Assembly: GCA_905234015.1 (NCBI GenBank) | Contig: CAJOFK010000014.1 | Coordinates: 1 to 32,662, forward strand | From: an uncultured Ruminococcus sp. | GTDB taxonomy: Bacteria; Bacillota; Clostridia; Oscillospirales; Acutalibacteraceae | Direction of reading: 5' to 3' | Length of the DNA stretch: 32,662 nt | Shown here: one piece after another, positions 23 through 32,662 of the stretch | How the letters are laid out: each line of letters starts with the position of its first letter | Numbering within the stretch: position 1 is the stretch's first letter | Notes under the pieces: model-generated | What the model was told of the DNA's origin: nothing | What the model saw: the letters and a program-made list of their open reading frames with translations, nothing else | The model's database searches: none | Translations under genes and position numbers: made by a program

Positions 23-55
23 TAACGAGTCCAATGGACTCGTTACTTTTTTTGG
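23..55. terminator. Probable bidirectional terminator downstream of tRNA-Asn 3' fragment
   Basis: TAACGAGTCC-aat-GGACTCGTTA perfect 10-bp stem (23-32/36-45), flanked by A7 (16-22) and T7 (47-53). Confidence 0.8.
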
Positions 56-100
56 CTCCCCCAACTGGGCTCGAACCAGTGACATCATGATTAACAGTCG
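53..100 (-). other. 3' fragment of tRNA-Asn(GTT): putative prophage attachment-site core
   Basis: Minus strand reads gaCTGTTAAtcatgatgtcactggTTCGAGCccagttgggggaGCCA: anticodon loop CTGTTAA, T-arm ACTGG-TTCGAGC-CCAGT, acceptor 3' strand, encoded CCA. No D-arm or 5' half lies upstream, so it is a truncated tRNA. Confidence 0.8.
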
Positions 101-190
101 TACGGTATTTTTATTACTTTGGCTTATTTACTGGTGTTCAGAGGCTTTTTATAATTAACCTGTAGCAACCGTGTAACAATTTTAAGAACC

Positions 191-502: not shown

Positions 503-874
503 TTATTTTTTATATGTTCCGAGGACATTTCTTTCAATTCTGTCCTCTACTCTCTTATTCATCCATAAAAGAGCTTCTTCGATGTGAGTGAGTGCAATCG
601 CGTTTTCTCTTGTCGCAAATTCTCCCTCCTGAAAACCTTTCAGCCTGTCGCGGACAATCTCAAGCAAATCAGTATCAAGAACGCCGTGAATAGCCTTTTC
701 ATCCTTACGAGCTCCGTCCTGAAACTGAATAACAACTGTTACAGGGTTGTCATCGTTCTCGTTTTCGGGGCAGATGATTAAATAACGATGATTTGCCCCG
801 CCTTTTCCTTTTTCATCCATAGCGGATACAGAGTTAAGTTTTTCTCTTTTCTGAATGGTGTTTAATTCTCTCAT
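503..874 (-). CDS. Tad1/Acb2 hairpin-domain-like putative anti-defence (signal sponge) protein
   Basis: 123 aa; C-terminal half [41 protein letters not shown] matches the remembered Acb2/Tad1 hairpin pattern (GFQxGxFxxRENAxALTxxEEALxWLxxRxxDRxxRxVxGT), with an N-terminal beta-rich region (GGANHRYLI...[10 protein letters not shown]) as in Tad1. Confidence 0.72.
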
Positions 875-2887: not shown

Positions 2888-3928
2888 TTATGACGGAGAA
2901 TACTCATAGTGCATGGTGACGCCAGCCGGGAATGCGTTCTCTTCGATATAGATATCTCCCCATTCCGTTTCTGTTCCGGTGTAGTAAACATCGGTTAAGT
3001 GAATGCAGTCTTTAAACGCATTCGGACCGATATTTGTAACCGAGCTCGGGATAACTACACTCTGAAGCGCACAGCCTTCGAATGCGCTTTCTTCTATAGA
3101 TTCAAGAATATTCGGAATATTTATATTCCCCAGCTGAGAGCAGCCGTGGAATGCAAATTCGCCTATCGCTTCTACAGTATCAGGGATGTTAATTGAATAT
3201 AAAGCTATACAGCCATCGAAAGCATGGTCGCTAATCGTTTCCAGATTATTGCAATTTGATAAATCTACCTCTTCCAAACCATCCCACATATAGAAGGAAT
3301 ATCCTGCTATTTCCCCAACTTCTGCCGGTACAACTACGGACGTTCCGCTTCTTCCGATAAATGCAGCAAATTCCTCATCACCGCCGCCGGAGGATATCTG
3401 TTCGATTTTATCAGCATACTGACTGGTCGGCGTATTTTCCGGAACTTCAACGCCTTTATCAATAATAGCCTCGCGAATAGAAGTAAAATCCTCGTTATCC
3501 GCCTCAATTTCAGCAATAAGCTCGGCGCGGGGAGTTGCGTCGGTGCCGTCGGGAGAATCAAGGATTGCTAAATCAACGGCATTAGTCTTACCTACTACAC
3601 CGCCGTCCTTAGTCATTACTAAGAAGATTTTAACAGTTCCGGCGGTATCTGTGATGTCGAGAGTTACACCGACAGCCGCGGTATACTGCTTTTTACCCGA
3701 AAACGGCTGGGCCCCTGTTTCTTTAAGGCTAAGCGGGTATGTAAGAATACTCTCATCCGTAAGCTGTACCTTAAGCGCTACAGCACATGTCGTAATATCA
3801 ACCAGCTCGTTTATAAATTCGCCAGTTATGGCGATATTTAGCTCAGCGGTTCCGTTCTCGCCAATAAAGATTTTTTCATTTTCTGAATCTAAGGTTAAGA
3901 CCTTATTTTCTGTCATATAAAGTTTCAT
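2888..3928 (-). CDS. Tail/baseplate protein with BspA-type LRR_5 repeats (candidate receptor-binding protein)
   Basis: Repeats such as AFDGCIALYSINIPDTVEAIGEFAFHGCSQLGNINIPNILESIEESAFEGC are BspA LRR_5-like; position is downstream of the baseplate genes. Confidence 0.7.
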   Translation of the reverse strand: MKLYMTENKVLTLDSENEKIFIGENGTAELNIAITGEFINELVDITTCAVALKVQLTDESILTYPLSLKETGAQPFSGKKQYTAAVGVTLDITDTAGTVKIFLVMTKDGGVVGKTNAVDLAILDSPDGTDATPRAELIAEIEADNEDFTSIREAIIDKGVEVPENTPTSQYADKIEQISSGGGDEEFAAFIGRSGTSVVVPAEVGEIAGYSFYMWDGLEEVDLSNCNNLETISDHAFDGCIALYSINIPDTVEAIGEFAFHGCSQLGNINIPNILESIEESAFEGCALQSVVIPSSVTNIGPNAFKDCIHLTDVYYTGTETEWGDIYIEENAFPAGVTMHYEYSPS

Positions 3929-27916: not shown

Positions 27917-28216
27917 ATGAAAGTAGAAAACATATTTAACGAAAGTGAAATTGCTATGATTTTTGAACCACTCGCCAATTACGCTGCATTTAATACTACA
28001 GATTATCGACTTCCGTTAAAATTTGATGTAAAAATGAAGCTTTTAAATTCTATAATGGATAAAATTGAAGCTCTTAATCCGTTGACGATGTTTACAAAGC
28101 AGGAGTATTCTGTTTTGCTCGCCGCTCTGCTTCATTATGAAGATGTCGTTGATGAAAAAAGTCTGACACCAGAATTTTACAAGTTAGTGGAAAAGATAGA
28201 TAACCTAATCGGCTGA
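27917..28216 (+). CDS. Hypothetical 99-aa moron protein
   Basis: Opposite in strand to early operon; SD gaaagg; own promoter and terminator. Confidence 0.7.
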   Translation: MKVENIFNESEIAMIFEPLANYAAFNTTDYRLPLKFDVKMKLLNSIMDKIEALNPLTMFTKQEYSVLLAALLHYEDVVDEKSLTPEFYKLVEKIDNLIG

Positions 28217-28263
28217 TTTTCAGTTCTTCACGCTCAAAACAATGTCTAATCTGTTGACTTCTT

Positions 28264-28300
28264 CTAAAAGCTCTTTTTATTTTTATAAAAGGGCTTTTTT
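28264..28300 (+). terminator. Terminator of moron
   Basis: AAGC-t-CTTTTTAT...ATAAAAG-g-GCTTTTTTT hairpin with T-tract. Confidence 0.65.
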
Positions 28301-28325
28301 TGTTTTTTCCGTGCATGGTATCCCC

Positions 28326-28508
28326 CTAAATCAAGCCCAGTATTGCACGAGCTTTAGTTATATAGTAAGCTGCAGCGGGAGATTTTCCGCTCATAACGTC
28401 ATTAGAAAAACGGTAGACAAGCTCCCCGCCTGACAGTCCCTTTTTTTCTTCTAAATCCATAAGTTTAACCGTGTAGTCACATAATACTGTGTCATTTGAT
28501 AATCTCAT
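28326..28508 (-). CDS. Small hypothetical early protein
   Basis: 60-aa ORF in early operon. Confidence 0.5.
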   Translation of the reverse strand: MRLSNDTVLCDYTVKLMDLEEKKGLSGGELVYRFSNDVMSGKSPAAAYYITKARAILGLI

Positions 28509-28563
28509 AACGATACCTCTTTTATAGCTTTATGTTCAAGCGCTTTGAACTTTGGCGACTTAT

Positions 28564-28761
28564 TTACTGCGCATATAGATATTCAAGTCTCATACCCGGG
28601 AACAACTTATCTCTAACCTTTACCGCTTCGGGATAAGTAAATTCACTAGAACCGTCAATTTTGTTTTTTGCGGTCCTATCATCTCGACCTATAACAATAG
28701 CTATATCATGAGGTTTAAGGTTTGCTCTTGCCATTTCTGCAATTAAGTTTTTGTTCTGCAT
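28564..28761 (-). CDS. Cro-like HTH protein
   Basis: MQNKNLIAEMARANLKPHDIAIVIGRDDRTAKNKIDGSSEF; divergent from repressor; ATG 28761 has better SD spacing than 28770. Confidence 0.7.
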   Translation of the reverse strand: MQNKNLIAEMARANLKPHDIAIVIGRDDRTAKNKIDGSSEFTYPEAVKVRDKLFPGMRLEYLYAQ

Positions 28762-28784
28762 ATTCAACATATCCTTTCATTAAA

Positions 28785-28873
28785 TTTCCTAATTTGGATA
28801 TTCCTATAATATAATATATCCATTTAAGGAAAAAGTCAAGCCTTTTTTGAAATATTTTTCCATATTTGGAAAA
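28785..28873. promoter_or_regulatory. Three operator sites (TCC-N6-GGA) of the lysogeny switch
   Basis: TTTCCTAATTTGGATA (28785-28800), TATCCATTTAAGGAAAA (28817-28833), TTTTCCATATTTGGAAAA (28856-28873). Confidence 0.75.
28811..28839 (-). promoter_or_regulatory. Early (Cro-side) promoter
   Basis: TTGACT (28834-28839)-N17-TATTAT (28811-28816) on minus strand. Confidence 0.8.
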
Positions 28874-28879
28874 AATATG

Positions 28880-28908
28880 TTGACATTCTTTTCCTCAAGT
28901 GATATTAT
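28880..28908 (+). promoter_or_regulatory. Repressor promoter
   Basis: TTGACA (28880-28885)-N17-TATTAT (28903-28908). Confidence 0.85.
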
Positions 28909-28930
28909 TCGATTAAGGACGGTGAGTATA

Positions 28931-29260
28931 ATGTGGTTAGATGTTTTAAAAGAAATGAAAAAGACTTGCAAAAAGACTTCTCAACAGATAGCCAATGAGA
29001 CTGGTCAACCCAAAAGCACTATTGATAAATTGTTTTCAGGAAACACACGAGAACCTCGATTAACTTTGGTAATGAGTGTAGTCCATTGTATGGGTTTTTC
29101 ACTTGACGAATTAAGCAATAACAAGATTAATTCGTTTTTTTTAAATGAACATGAACAAAGAATAATTAAGGCTTATAGAAAAAAAGTAGAAATGCAAGAC
29201 GCAATTGATATTCTTCTCGGCATTGAAAAAGAACCCGAAAAAGAAAAGAAACGCGCCTAA
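28931..29260 (+). CDS. XRE-family repressor (CI-like), no protease domain
   Basis: MWLDVLKEMKKTCKKTSQQIANETGQPKSTIDKLFSGNTREPRL HTH. Called ORF start 28847 lies upstream of the promoter; ATG 28931 with SD preferred. Confidence 0.85.
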   Translation: MWLDVLKEMKKTCKKTSQQIANETGQPKSTIDKLFSGNTREPRLTLVMSVVHCMGFSLDELSNNKINSFFLNEHEQRIIKAYRKKVEMQDAIDILLGIEKEPEKEKKRA

Positions 29261-29300
29261 ATACAAACGCGTTGGAAATATTTTTTACTTGGAGTAGGTT

Positions 29301-29642
29301 ATGTATAAAAAAGAAGCAAATCACTTTATTAGAATGGTTCTTTCAGGTATAAGTATCGCCATAGGATCTATTTTATTTGTTTTAACTATCCTGTTTCATA
29401 ATATTTTATTATTTTATTTTGGTACAATTATTATTATTTTTGGTATATGCGTATTTGCTTTTTCAAAACTAGTATATTCGCAACCTACTGAAACATTTAA
29501 AACCGAAGAAAACAATAGCCAAATTGACTATATGAAAATGATTGAAGAAGAAATAGAGAATGAAGAAATAGAGAAAAATAGTGATAGCAATATCGTTCTT
29601 TCTATTATCTCTAATTTATATAGTGAGGATAAAAATGGATAA
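29301..29642 (+). CDS. Two-TM membrane protein
   Basis: FIRMVLSGISIAIGSILFVLTILFHNILLFYFGTIIIIFGICVFAF. Confidence 0.65.
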   Translation: MYKKEANHFIRMVLSGISIAIGSILFVLTILFHNILLFYFGTIIIIFGICVFAFSKLVYSQPTETFKTEENNSQIDYMKMIEEEIENEEIEKNSDSNIVLSIISNLYSEDKNG

Positions 29643-30156
29643 CATTGTAGATTATATTCAAGAATTAATTCTTAATTCAGATAAAGATTTTAAGCAAATT
29701 AAATTGAATATTATTGAAAACAAATCAGGATATGACAGTATAGTTATATCGTCCGAAATGACTACTTATAGACCTAAAGTATCTAACGCTCTTTTTGCAA
29801 GAATAAAAACATCAGGTAAAAAGCCTTACATTAGTTTTCGTAATAAATACATAAATTGGTTTATTGAAAACGATATTAATACATACTCTATAAAGTCTGA
29901 AACGGATTTTTTCAGAGTTCCTTTATCTGATTTTATGCTTGCTATTAATTTTGAAAAAAAGGATTTTTCTAAACTTGCTGTTCAAATATGCTTAGAGGCT
30001 ATGAATTTTCCTCAGTTTGGCTGTTGTGATAAATTCGTACAATGCTCTGACGCTAAAAAGTGTGTTCATTCAGATTTATTGTATTCAACTGCTTGTATGT
30101 ATAGGAAAAACTTAGAGAATAATAAAATTTTTTATGGTAAAAACAAAAACACTTAG
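29635..30156 (+). CDS. Protein with C-terminal Cys cluster
   Basis: MDNIVDYIQEL...FGCCDKFVQCSDAKKCVHSDLLYSTACMYRKNLENNKIFYGKNKN. ATG 29635 with SD gtgagg overlaps previous stop; ORF-track GTG start rejected. Confidence 0.7.
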   Translation: MDNIVDYIQELILNSDKDFKQIKLNIIENKSGYDSIVISSEMTTYRPKVSNALFARIKTSGKKPYISFRNKYINWFIENDINTYSIKSETDFFRVPLSDFMLAINFEKKDFSKLAVQICLEAMNFPQFGCCDKFVQCSDAKKCVHSDLLYSTACMYRKNLENNKIFYGKNKNT

Positions 30157-30165
30157 GAGAATAAT

Positions 30166-31284
30166 ATGACTGATTTAAAAATTGCCGTTATTGATGTAGA
30201 AACCCCTAATGGAAATAATGATTCTATTTGTTCTATTGGTATAACTGTTATAGAAAATAATAATGTTACCGAAGAAAAATATTTTCTCGTAAACCCTGAA
30301 ACTAATTTTGATTATCGTTGTATTAAGATTCACGGGATATCAGAAAAAGATGTTGCAGATGCATTTACATTTCCCGAGCTTTGGGAAAGAATCAAAGTCT
30401 ATTTTTCGGGTTATTTATTAGCAGGACATAATTTCACCTTTGATTTATCCTGTATTAATAAATCATTAAAAAAATACAATATAGATGTTTCTCCTTCATA
30501 TTACATAGATACATATACTATAGCCAAGGAAAACGTAACAAATACGAATGATTATAAGCTGACAACATTATGCAATACTTTTAATATTGAATTAAAGAAT
30601 CACCATAATTCTCTAGACGATTGCAGAGCTACTGCAAATTTATTGAAAGAATTGATGTCTAAATATGAAATAGATATTGATAACTATATAAAACAATATC
30701 CTTTCAAAGGAAAAACAATTAAAAAAAGCAAAAGAACGTATAGTGATACAACTCGTTCATTACAAGAACTACAAGGGATTTTATTTGGCATAACATGTGA
30801 CGGAATACTATCTGACGATGAAATATACGCTATTCAAAAATGGGCAACCAACCATAAGGAATTAAAAGGTAATTTCCCCTATGATAAAATATATTCCGCA
30901 ATAGAAGATGTGTTGGAAGATAATATTATTACAGAAGATGAACGAGATTATTTATTTTCTCTTTTTAATAATATTCTTAATCCTGTTGAATCAGATAATT
31001 TAACTGAAGAAATTTCTTTAAAAGGCGCTATTATATGCCTAACTGGTGACTTTGAGTGTATGTCAAAAAATGATTTTGAAATTACTTTATCGTCAAGAGG
31101 GGCAATTGTAAAAAAGAATGTTGTAAAAGATTTAAACTACCTTGTTGTAGGAAATAAAGGTAGTCAACAATGGTCTCAAGGAAATTACGGAAACAAAGTA
31201 AAAAAAGCTATGCAATATAATGAAAAAGGTTGTAACATTCAGATAATACCAGAGACTGATTTTTTAATCAGTATAGGTTATTAA
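30166..31284 (+). CDS. DEDDh 3'-5' exonuclease with TerB-like middle and C-terminal BRCT domain
   Basis: VIDVETPN, GHNFTFDLS, HHNSLDDCRAT (DEDDh); LKGAIICLTGDFECMSKNDFEITLSSRGAIVKKNVVKDLNYLVVG (BRCT). Confidence 0.85.
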   Translation: MTDLKIAVIDVETPNGNNDSICSIGITVIENNNVTEEKYFLVNPETNFDYRCIKIHGISEKDVADAFTFPELWERIKVYFSGYLLAGHNFTFDLSCINKSLKKYNIDVSPSYYIDTYTIAKENVTNTNDYKLTTLCNTFNIELKNHHNSLDDCRATANLLKELMSKYEIDIDNYIKQYPFKGKTIKKSKRTYSDTTRSLQELQGILFGITCDGILSDDEIYAIQKWATNHKELKGNFPYDKIYSAIEDVLEDNIITEDERDYLFSLFNNILNPVESDNLTEEISLKGAIICLTGDFECMSKNDFEITLSSRGAIVKKNVVKDLNYLVVGNKGSQQWSQGNYGNKVKKAMQYNEKGCNIQIIPETDFLISIGY

Positions 31285-31374
31285 AATAAAAAACGCCCTA
31301 CCCTGCTGGAACAGGATAGGACGATAAAGAAGATAATACAGCGGGATAAACCAGCTATACTAACTCCGTCGCAA
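31285..31374 (-). ncRNA. Small RNA with consensus promoter and Rho-independent terminator
   Basis: Promoter TTGACA-N17-TATAAT; TSS expected ~31373; hairpin 31334-31362; terminator stem 31294-31305/31312-31323 then T6. Confidence 0.75.
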
Positions 31375-31379
31375 GATTT

Positions 31380-31408
31380 ATTATAGTTGATTTTGCCCTC
31401 GCTGTCAA
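31380..31408 (-). promoter_or_regulatory. Perfect sigma-A-type promoter of the sRNA
   Basis: TTGACA (complement of 31403-31408), 17-nt spacer, TATAAT (complement of 31380-31385). Confidence 0.88.
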
Positions 31409-31420
31409 TTAAAGTGAGGG
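31396..31420 (+). promoter_or_regulatory. Hairpin sequestering int Shine-Dalgarno
   Basis: CCCTCGCT (31396-31403) pairs with AGTGAGGG (31413-31420), which contains the SD 6 nt before ATG 31427. Confidence 0.6.
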
Positions 31421-31426
31421 ATTTTT

Positions 31427-32647
31427 ATGCCTAAAATCTGTAAAAATCGAAAATGCAAAAGAGAATTGCAGGATGATTTTAAATTCTGCCCCTATTGCGG
31501 AAAAAATCAAGAGAAAGAAGTCCGCAATAATAAACGCCCTAACGGGACAGGCTCGCTGTATCAGCGCAAGGATATCAAGTCTCAACCGTGGGCGGCTTCG
31601 AGTACAATAACCGGAAAACGCGTTTACCTCGGCACATTTCCAACCCGAACGGCAGCGGTTAAGGCTCTGAGTGATTACGAAGCGAATCCGACCAACTCCT
31701 TTAACTTAACTCTCGCTCAGCTCCACGCTAAGTGGATGAAAAGCAAGTCCTATACCAAACTCGGAGAAAGCACGAAAAGCAACTATAAGACTTCGTGGGA
31801 TAAGTTGAAGCCGCTGTATAACCGAAAGTTTAAGGATTTACGAAAAGCCGACTATCAAGCGATCATTGATTATTACGAAGGACAGCACCAGAAGCGCGGT
31901 ACCGACGGAATGCTAATGTACATTGACAAGAACGGTAAGCACACCTATAAGGTTACTGATAAGCCGTATATTATAGACGGGCTAAAATTTTCGGCGCTGC
32001 ATAAAATAAAATGTCTGCTGACTAAGATGTACCCGTTCGCTATGGAGGATGATATTGTTAATAAGAATTACGCCTCATTCATAGAACTGCCCGACAGAAA
32101 CGAGGTCGAGAAAACGAGCTTCACGGACATACAGCTTGAAATCATTAGACAGAATATATATAAGGTACCTTTCGCTGATTATATTTACTGTTTATGCTAT
32201 TTAGGTTTTAGAGTATCAGAATTTTTGGAGCTGACAAAAGATAATTACTATATAAGTGATACGGGTATTCCGATTTTTGTCGGCGGTAAAAAAACGGAGG
32301 CTGGCACTAACCGTCCCGTACCAATTCACAAAAAAATTCGTCCGATTGTTAAACGTCAATTAGAAAAAAACGGTCAAACTATATTCTGTGACGAAAACGG
32401 GGAGGCTATGAATAAAGATAAATTTCGTGAACGCTATTTTTACCCCGCGCTTGACGCTCTCGGTATGCCGCGGACATTAACGCCGCATAGCTGCCGCCGG
32501 ACGTTCTCAACGCGGATGAGCGCCGCGGGAGCTCGCCCCGAGGATATCATCGCGCTTATGGGTCATACGTCATATGATACAGATATTAAACATTATATAA
32601 ATCAAGAAGCTGATACGCTGTATGAGGCGCTGAAGCTTATGGCATAA
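31427..32647 (+). CDS. int: Tyrosine recombinase/integrase with N-terminal zinc ribbon
   Basis: CKNRKC...CPYCG; AP2-like GSLYQRKDIKSQPWAA; catalytic LGFRVSEFLEL, HSCRRTF, GHTSYDTDIKHYIN. Confidence 0.95.
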   Translation: MPKICKNRKCKRELQDDFKFCPYCGKNQEKEVRNNKRPNGTGSLYQRKDIKSQPWAASSTITGKRVYLGTFPTRTAAVKALSDYEANPTNSFNLTLAQLHAKWMKSKSYTKLGESTKSNYKTSWDKLKPLYNRKFKDLRKADYQAIIDYYEGQHQKRGTDGMLMYIDKNGKHTYKVTDKPYIIDGLKFSALHKIKCLLTKMYPFAMEDDIVNKNYASFIELPDRNEVEKTSFTDIQLEIIRQNIYKVPFADYIYCLCYLGFRVSEFLELTKDNYYISDTGIPIFVGGKKTEAGTNRPVPIHKKIRPIVKRQLEKNGQTIFCDENGEAMNKDKFRERYFYPALDALGMPRTLTPHSCRRTFSTRMSAAGARPEDIIALMGHTSYDTDIKHYINQEADTLYEALKLMA

Positions 32648-32662
32648 GTCGAACCTCTCACG

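Follow-up and report, generated by a model that had tools for sequence, protein, structure and literature searches.

Beyond a few model phages, little is understood, to our knowledge, of how a prophage silences its integrase gene without shutting down the lysogeny genes beside it. The locus described here raises the question of what a short structured RNA, predicted on the strand opposite the leader of an integrase gene, might contribute to that control. The window (the whole stretch of DNA analysed, 32,662 nucleotides) corresponds to one entire draft-genome contig and has the appearance of a prophage. Its minus strand carries structural and lytic genes, and the plus strand at its right end encodes, in order, a repressor of the HTH type, two genes of unknown function, gene X (an exonuclease whose C-terminus is BRCT-like) and int:

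28847-29260, plus strand: HTH repressor (HTH_3; phrog_9425 repressor)
28880-28908, plus strand: promoter-like site near the repressor (11/12 with TG; promoter scan)
30166-31284, plus strand: gene X, a DEDD exonuclease with a BRCT-like C-terminus (PF00929, E = 8e-26; phrog matches to polymerase exonuclease and NAD-ligase BRCT regions)
31427-32647, plus strand: int, a tyrosine recombinase of 406 aa and the proposed target gene (PF00589, E = 6e-16; phrog_1 integrase, E = 9e-44)

The repressor probably stands at the head of a lysogeny operon that ends with int. The promoter scan found no strong plus-strand promoter between the exonuclease gene and int, so int is probably the last gene of this plus-strand operon; likewise, no clear sense promoter for the int leader was mapped. 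Gene X and int are codirectional, and an antisense terminator adjoins the stop codon of gene X.

In the gap between these two genes the original prediction had placed an undescribed minus-strand RNA of about 90 nt, whose parts we delimit as follows:

31380-31408, minus strand: promoter of the antisense RNA, TTGACA (31408-31403)-N17-TATAAT (31385-31380), overlapping arm 2 of the int leader
31287-31373, minus strand: antisense RNA of ~87 nt without an ORF, its start and end predicted
31329-31367, minus strand: 5' hairpin of the antisense RNA, present in the minimum-energy structure
31288-31323, minus strand: intrinsic terminator with a 13-bp stem (31323-31294) and TTTTTT (31293-31288), the conserved mark of the family

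The promoter is as perfect as had been claimed (12/12 to consensus, 31408-31380). It ranks first among the 24 promoter-like sites in 28000-32662 and is the sole perfect site of the window, and no perfect site occurs in 30 simulated windows; the combination of promoter and terminator likewise has a single instance in the window and none among 30 simulated windows. The predicted terminator and its run of six T are present, with a stem of 13 rather than 12 bp, and the RNA is expected to end at ~31287; this puts its 3' end some 3 nt beyond the stop codon of the exonuclease gene, where one base had been proposed. The stretch 31374-31282 (minus) folds at -38 kcal/mol (z = -6.75), a value equalled by 0/200 shuffles, and both hairpins, including the second one predicted at the outset, belong to the minimum-energy structure. 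These stems are continuous on the minus strand only, as foreseen, the plus-strand reading being interrupted by C.A mismatches and having no T run after the terminator stem. Equally in agreement with the original prediction, no ORF of at least 20 aa overlaps 31285-31408 on the minus strand; nor is there one on the plus strand, where the small hydrophobic toxin of a type I toxin-antitoxin system would be expected, and an RNA antitoxin of that type was therefore rejected. A search of Rfam with the whole window, and with the local region at relaxed thresholds, returned no match above cut-off; the weaker ones, to PyrR (22.7 bits, cut-off 54) and the L10 leader, were judged to be chance. Chance matches were likewise all that BLAST returned when the region was compared with phages and plasmids.

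A DNA search of 400 genomes of the same family recovered the terminator at 85-97% identity in several of them, each time in the order gene X, antisense terminator, antisense promoter, recombinase. We therefore modelled the family by its terminator, building a covariance model from 20 sequences, in whose alignment 97% of cells are paired, six pairs have changed on both sides and the covariation is matched by 0/500 shuffles, and searching it in 400 family and 394 class genomes (the window's own terminator scores 66.4 bits). Among the matches of at least 43 bits in Clostridia genomes, 26/29 lie no more than 450 nt from a divergently oriented recombinase of the tyrosine or serine type, and the antisense promoter is present in every one of these 26; the remaining three are a locus at a contig edge, a locus with an inserted ORF and a locus with a farther recombinase. 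Matches below ~35 bits that lacked promoter or recombinase were treated as chance. The recurrence of promoter, hairpins and terminator in dozens of loci, together with the covarying terminator stem, argues well, through conservation, for the discrete small RNA that was predicted.

The cassette also occurs in cultured gut phages (Faecalibacterium phage Aster, Blautia phage Montmirail and Ruminococcus gnavus phage phiRgIBDN1) and in Enterococcus and Tissierellia contigs; viral contigs searched with the window integrase and exonuclease yielded no relatives. Approached in reverse, from 57 integrase regions chosen as the best PF14659 and PF07508 matches and scanned with a strict detector, the cassette appeared in 2, so that most recombinases of the family either do not have it or were missed by the detector; it is a widespread yet minority feature among those integrase regions. 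Gene X is codirectional with int and in most loci ends no more than ~10 nt from the antisense terminator. Its identity varies widely (L110, L116, L120, L122, L142, L146, L167, L174, L180 and L205), the products including IrrE-type peptidases, an Abi_2 protein, an ion channel, T5orf172, HicB-like and NYN proteins and an S24 repressor; the place that it takes in the lysogeny operon resembles a slot for cargo. Two arrangements depart from the usual one: in Enterococcus rivorum (L035) an HTH-like ORF stands where a recombinase would be expected, with the same promoter, arms and terminator upstream of it (2975-2997, minus strand), and in L004/L114 an antisense-direction ORF of ~1 kb (about 542-1486) lies between int and the conserved terminator.

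The original prediction was right to place the RNA between the exonuclease gene and int; what it overlooked is the complementarity of the RNA to the int leader, of which it is, judged by sequence, a predicted countertranscript. Three arms can be delimited in this leader:

31338-31345, plus strand: arm 1, the pre-emptor, ACAGCGGG, within the zone covered by the antisense RNA
31396-31405, plus strand: arm 2, CCCTCGCTGT, common to the 1:2 and 2:3 helices
31413-31420, plus strand: arm 3, AGTGAGGG, carrying the int Shine-Dalgarno GAGGG
31422-31426, plus strand: T5 run directly 3' of the 2:3 stem, making it terminator-like; the int ATG comes next, at 31427

In the window the 1:2 and 2:3 helices, the latter of 8 pairs, are mutually exclusive, and of the three arms the antisense RNA covers arm 1 only. 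Predicted folding of the nascent leader gives 1:2 at P = 0.88-0.89 before arm 3 emerges, and the full leader without antisense RNA favours 2:3 at equilibrium (P 0.75-0.90 once arm 3 is out). With a shorter leader (the window as locus L112), P(2:3) is 0.54 when free and 0.99 when the RNA-covered zone is blocked. Since the full leader prefers 2:3 even without the antisense RNA, in this folding model the ON state of the window's int leader must be kinetic, as in plasmid attenuators.

Although the 5' part of the antisense RNA has no sequence relation from one locus to another, it remains complementary to the int leader of its own locus. For 38 non-redundant loci with diverged arms, the 1:2 duplex has a mean energy of -22.8 kcal/mol with native partners and -14.6 kcal/mol with swapped ones, a difference reached in 0/100,000 permutations (z = -14.7), in a test that counts some inherited pairing more than once because loci may share ancestry. 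The 1:2 and 2:3 helices have bases in common in 37/38 loci. Across 34 loci, P(2:3) rises from 0.30 in the free leader to 0.84 with the RNA-covered zone blocked, which alone is weak evidence because 2:3 was defined from the downstream part; the informative control is a leader given the 5' zone of another locus, for which P(2:3) is 0.74 (p = 4e-9). The Shine-Dalgarno of the first start codon falls within arm 3 in 28 of these 34 loci, and a T-rich tail follows arm 3 in 19/34.

Strand preference was computed as well. In 35/35 loci the antisense RNA gives a better fold than its complement does, as is expected of a functional RNA on that strand and in keeping with the minus-strand continuity of the stems in the window; its 5' part folds better than its complement in 36/38. 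The 2:3 helix shows the opposite orientation: read on the sense strand it contains 41 G.U and 20 A.C (p = 0.0099), the excess that a hairpin in the sense RNA should produce.

From the anatomy, conserved position, native-partner complementarity and predicted switch computed here, we consider it rather likely that the minus-strand RNA is a cis-encoded antisense regulator that lowers expression of its own prophage's int through a leader switch like that of plasmid pT181. We infer transcription, read-through, timing and direction of effect along the following lines. As the last gene of the lysogeny operon, int would be transcribed by polymerase reading through from the exonuclease gene. While the leader is still being made, arm 1 would pair with arm 2, leaving the int Shine-Dalgarno free and allowing transcription to go on. 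In an established lysogen, abundant antisense RNA would bind the arm-1 zone; with arm 1 occupied, arm 2 would pair with arm 3, hiding the Shine-Dalgarno and forming, with the T5 run, a terminator-like hairpin, so that int would be off and the upstream genes still on. In a newly infected cell int would be made, because the antisense pool is not yet present, and the phage would integrate. Of the targets first proposed, int, immunity or the host, int is strongly favoured, both by the antisense relation of the RNA to the int leader and by the matching switch in that leader; immunity and host targets gained no support.

The weakest point of the leader switch lies in the 1:2 helix, which has no sense-strand G.U bias (47 G.U against 58 A.C) and whose energy is slightly better on the minus-strand reading in 28/38 loci, so that the 1/2 repeat may still have a role at the DNA level. 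Such a role would suit transcription interference, in which the strong minus promoter sends polymerase against read-through from gene X to int, the RNA product is inert and the promoter is tuned by the 1/2 repeat, acting as a DNA operator. The absence of a sense-strand bias in 1:2 is consistent with this explanation, as are the flanking of the antisense promoter by the 1/2 inverted repeat and the retention of the promoter in all strong recombinase-linked matches. However, interference does not need an antisense RNA that is structured on its own strand only, as in all 35 loci compared, or a covarying terminator stem, and the 2:3 hairpin, with its G.U bias on the sense strand and its place over the int Shine-Dalgarno, also speaks against it; we regard interference as improbable. 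Still less probable, in our estimation, is a trans-acting small RNA that serves other phage or host mRNAs and lies beside int by chance. The conservation of the terminator sequence (84% mean column identity) does go beyond the needs of folding, as a trans-acting RNA might require, but what the loci retain in the 5' part, where a seed site would be expected, is complementarity to their own int leader rather than a shared sequence, and the position upstream of recombinases is fixed. That the cassette is plain insulation, a terminator/promoter pair separating gene X from int or the remnant of a cargo gene slot, is the faintest of the prospects despite the ~1 kb ORF found between int and the same terminator in L004/L114, for it leaves native-partner pairing unexplained, and a terminator that works on the minus strand only (a stem broken by C.A and no T run on plus) cannot insulate int from gene X.

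The antisense leader switch that we prefer has counterparts in plasmids. In the pT181 RNAI/repC countertranscript-driven attenuator (Novick et al. 1989, reviewed in PMC5703833), an 87-nt antisense RNA acts against a leader whose pre-emptor base-pairs with one side, the 5' arm, of a terminator-like stem-loop carrying the ribosome binding site, and antisense binding lets that stem-loop form. By prediction, the window shares with pT181 a short structured antisense RNA complementary to the untranslated leader of its target and, immediately ahead of the start codon, a stem-loop (31396-31426) provided with ribosome binding site and U run; across loci, the likeness extends to a pre-emptor that lies in the antisense-covered zone and can pair with the stem-loop farther downstream, on its 5' arm (the permutation result and the shared bases given above). 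Unlike in pT181, the gene controlled would be a phage integrase, carried by a chromosomal prophage and known here from sequence alone, rather than a plasmid replication gene, and the sense RNA probably arises by operon read-through rather than from a dedicated promoter. The pSK41 RNAI/rep system (Kwong et al. 2006, reviewed in PMC5703833), in which an antisense RNA of ~83 nt with two stem-loops induces a stem-loop that hides the ribosome binding site, fits those of our loci that have no T run, although it controls plasmid copy number and no sequence relation to the window was shown. In pIP501 RNAIII/repR, antisense-induced leader attenuation is aided by a U-turn loop (PMC4981023), and a YUNR motif is found in the terminator loop, on one strand or the other, in 25/26 loci here; pIP501 differs in its 136-nt RNA, its role in plasmid replication, its dedicated sense promoter and its CopR protein. 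Membership of the cassette in the pT181/pSK41 plasmid replication families was rejected, its neighbours being recombinases (26/29 strong matches) and not plasmid Rep. By analogy, then, the logic is that of pT181/pSK41 antisense control, here placed on integrases, and no description of a leader switch on an integrase was found in the open-access literature searched.

The position of the RNA is familiar from Streptococcus. According to one study, S. pyogenes lysogens transcribe antisense RNAs upstream of int (SP119_SR034/071/086/106), for which the authors suggest silencing of the integrase in lysogeny (PMC6431027), no mechanism being given in the literature consulted; another set aside predicted prophage small RNAs, all of them adjoining integrase genes (PMC3675131). 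The word "undescribed" in the original prediction consequently holds for this sequence, which has no Rfam match, and fails for the position, where S. pyogenes prophages have antisense RNAs (RF02589; PMC6431027). We made the comparison through Rfam RF02589 (Spy779816), which is located upstream of int in Streptococcus phage 315.3 and stands in for the RNA coordinates of PMC6431027; DNA similar to this antisense locus is present in 251 Streptococcus phage records. Place and orientation are the same, between lysogeny genes and int and antisense to the int leader, with a hairpin and a terminator, whereas sequence similarity to the window is absent. At its gathering score the RF02589 model matches only the Streptococcus phage locus L109, with no match in the window or the scanned Clostridia loci, and the 1/2/3 switch was not found in L109, the one Streptococcus leader examined.

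The finding amounts to a specific, testable RNA mechanism that recurs beside both tyrosine and serine recombinases; it would suggest how the streptococcal antisense RNAs might act and would extend plasmid-style antisense control to integration. More tentatively, and with less than even expectation, these loci could represent a widespread, unrecognised class of antisense-RNA switches on the integrases of mobile elements across Clostridia. As the arms differ between elements, silencing by a given RNA would be confined to integrases of its own type, and incoming relatives would be kept from integrating, in the manner of plasmid incompatibility.

Several minor observations accompany these results. 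The terminator stem and loop are far more conserved than the rest of the antisense RNA, and the loop in the family is mostly TTCCAG, TTGGCG or CGCCAA. The window integrase begins with a zinc-ribbon-like extension (31427-31505, plus strand; PF13240, 20 bits, below the cut-off of 25), as do the integrases of L011 and L012, and zinc ribbons are also found at the start of several X genes. At the other end of the window, a 123-aa protein encoded at 503-874 (minus strand) has an Acb2/Tad1 hairpin domain (PF24729, 27.4 bits, cut-off 27) and is a possible anti-CBASS or anti-Thoeris nucleotide sponge. Finally, ~52-110 (minus strand) resembles by eye the 3' half of a tRNA-Asn gene, ARAGORN reporting no complete tRNA, and is probably the attL of the prophage.
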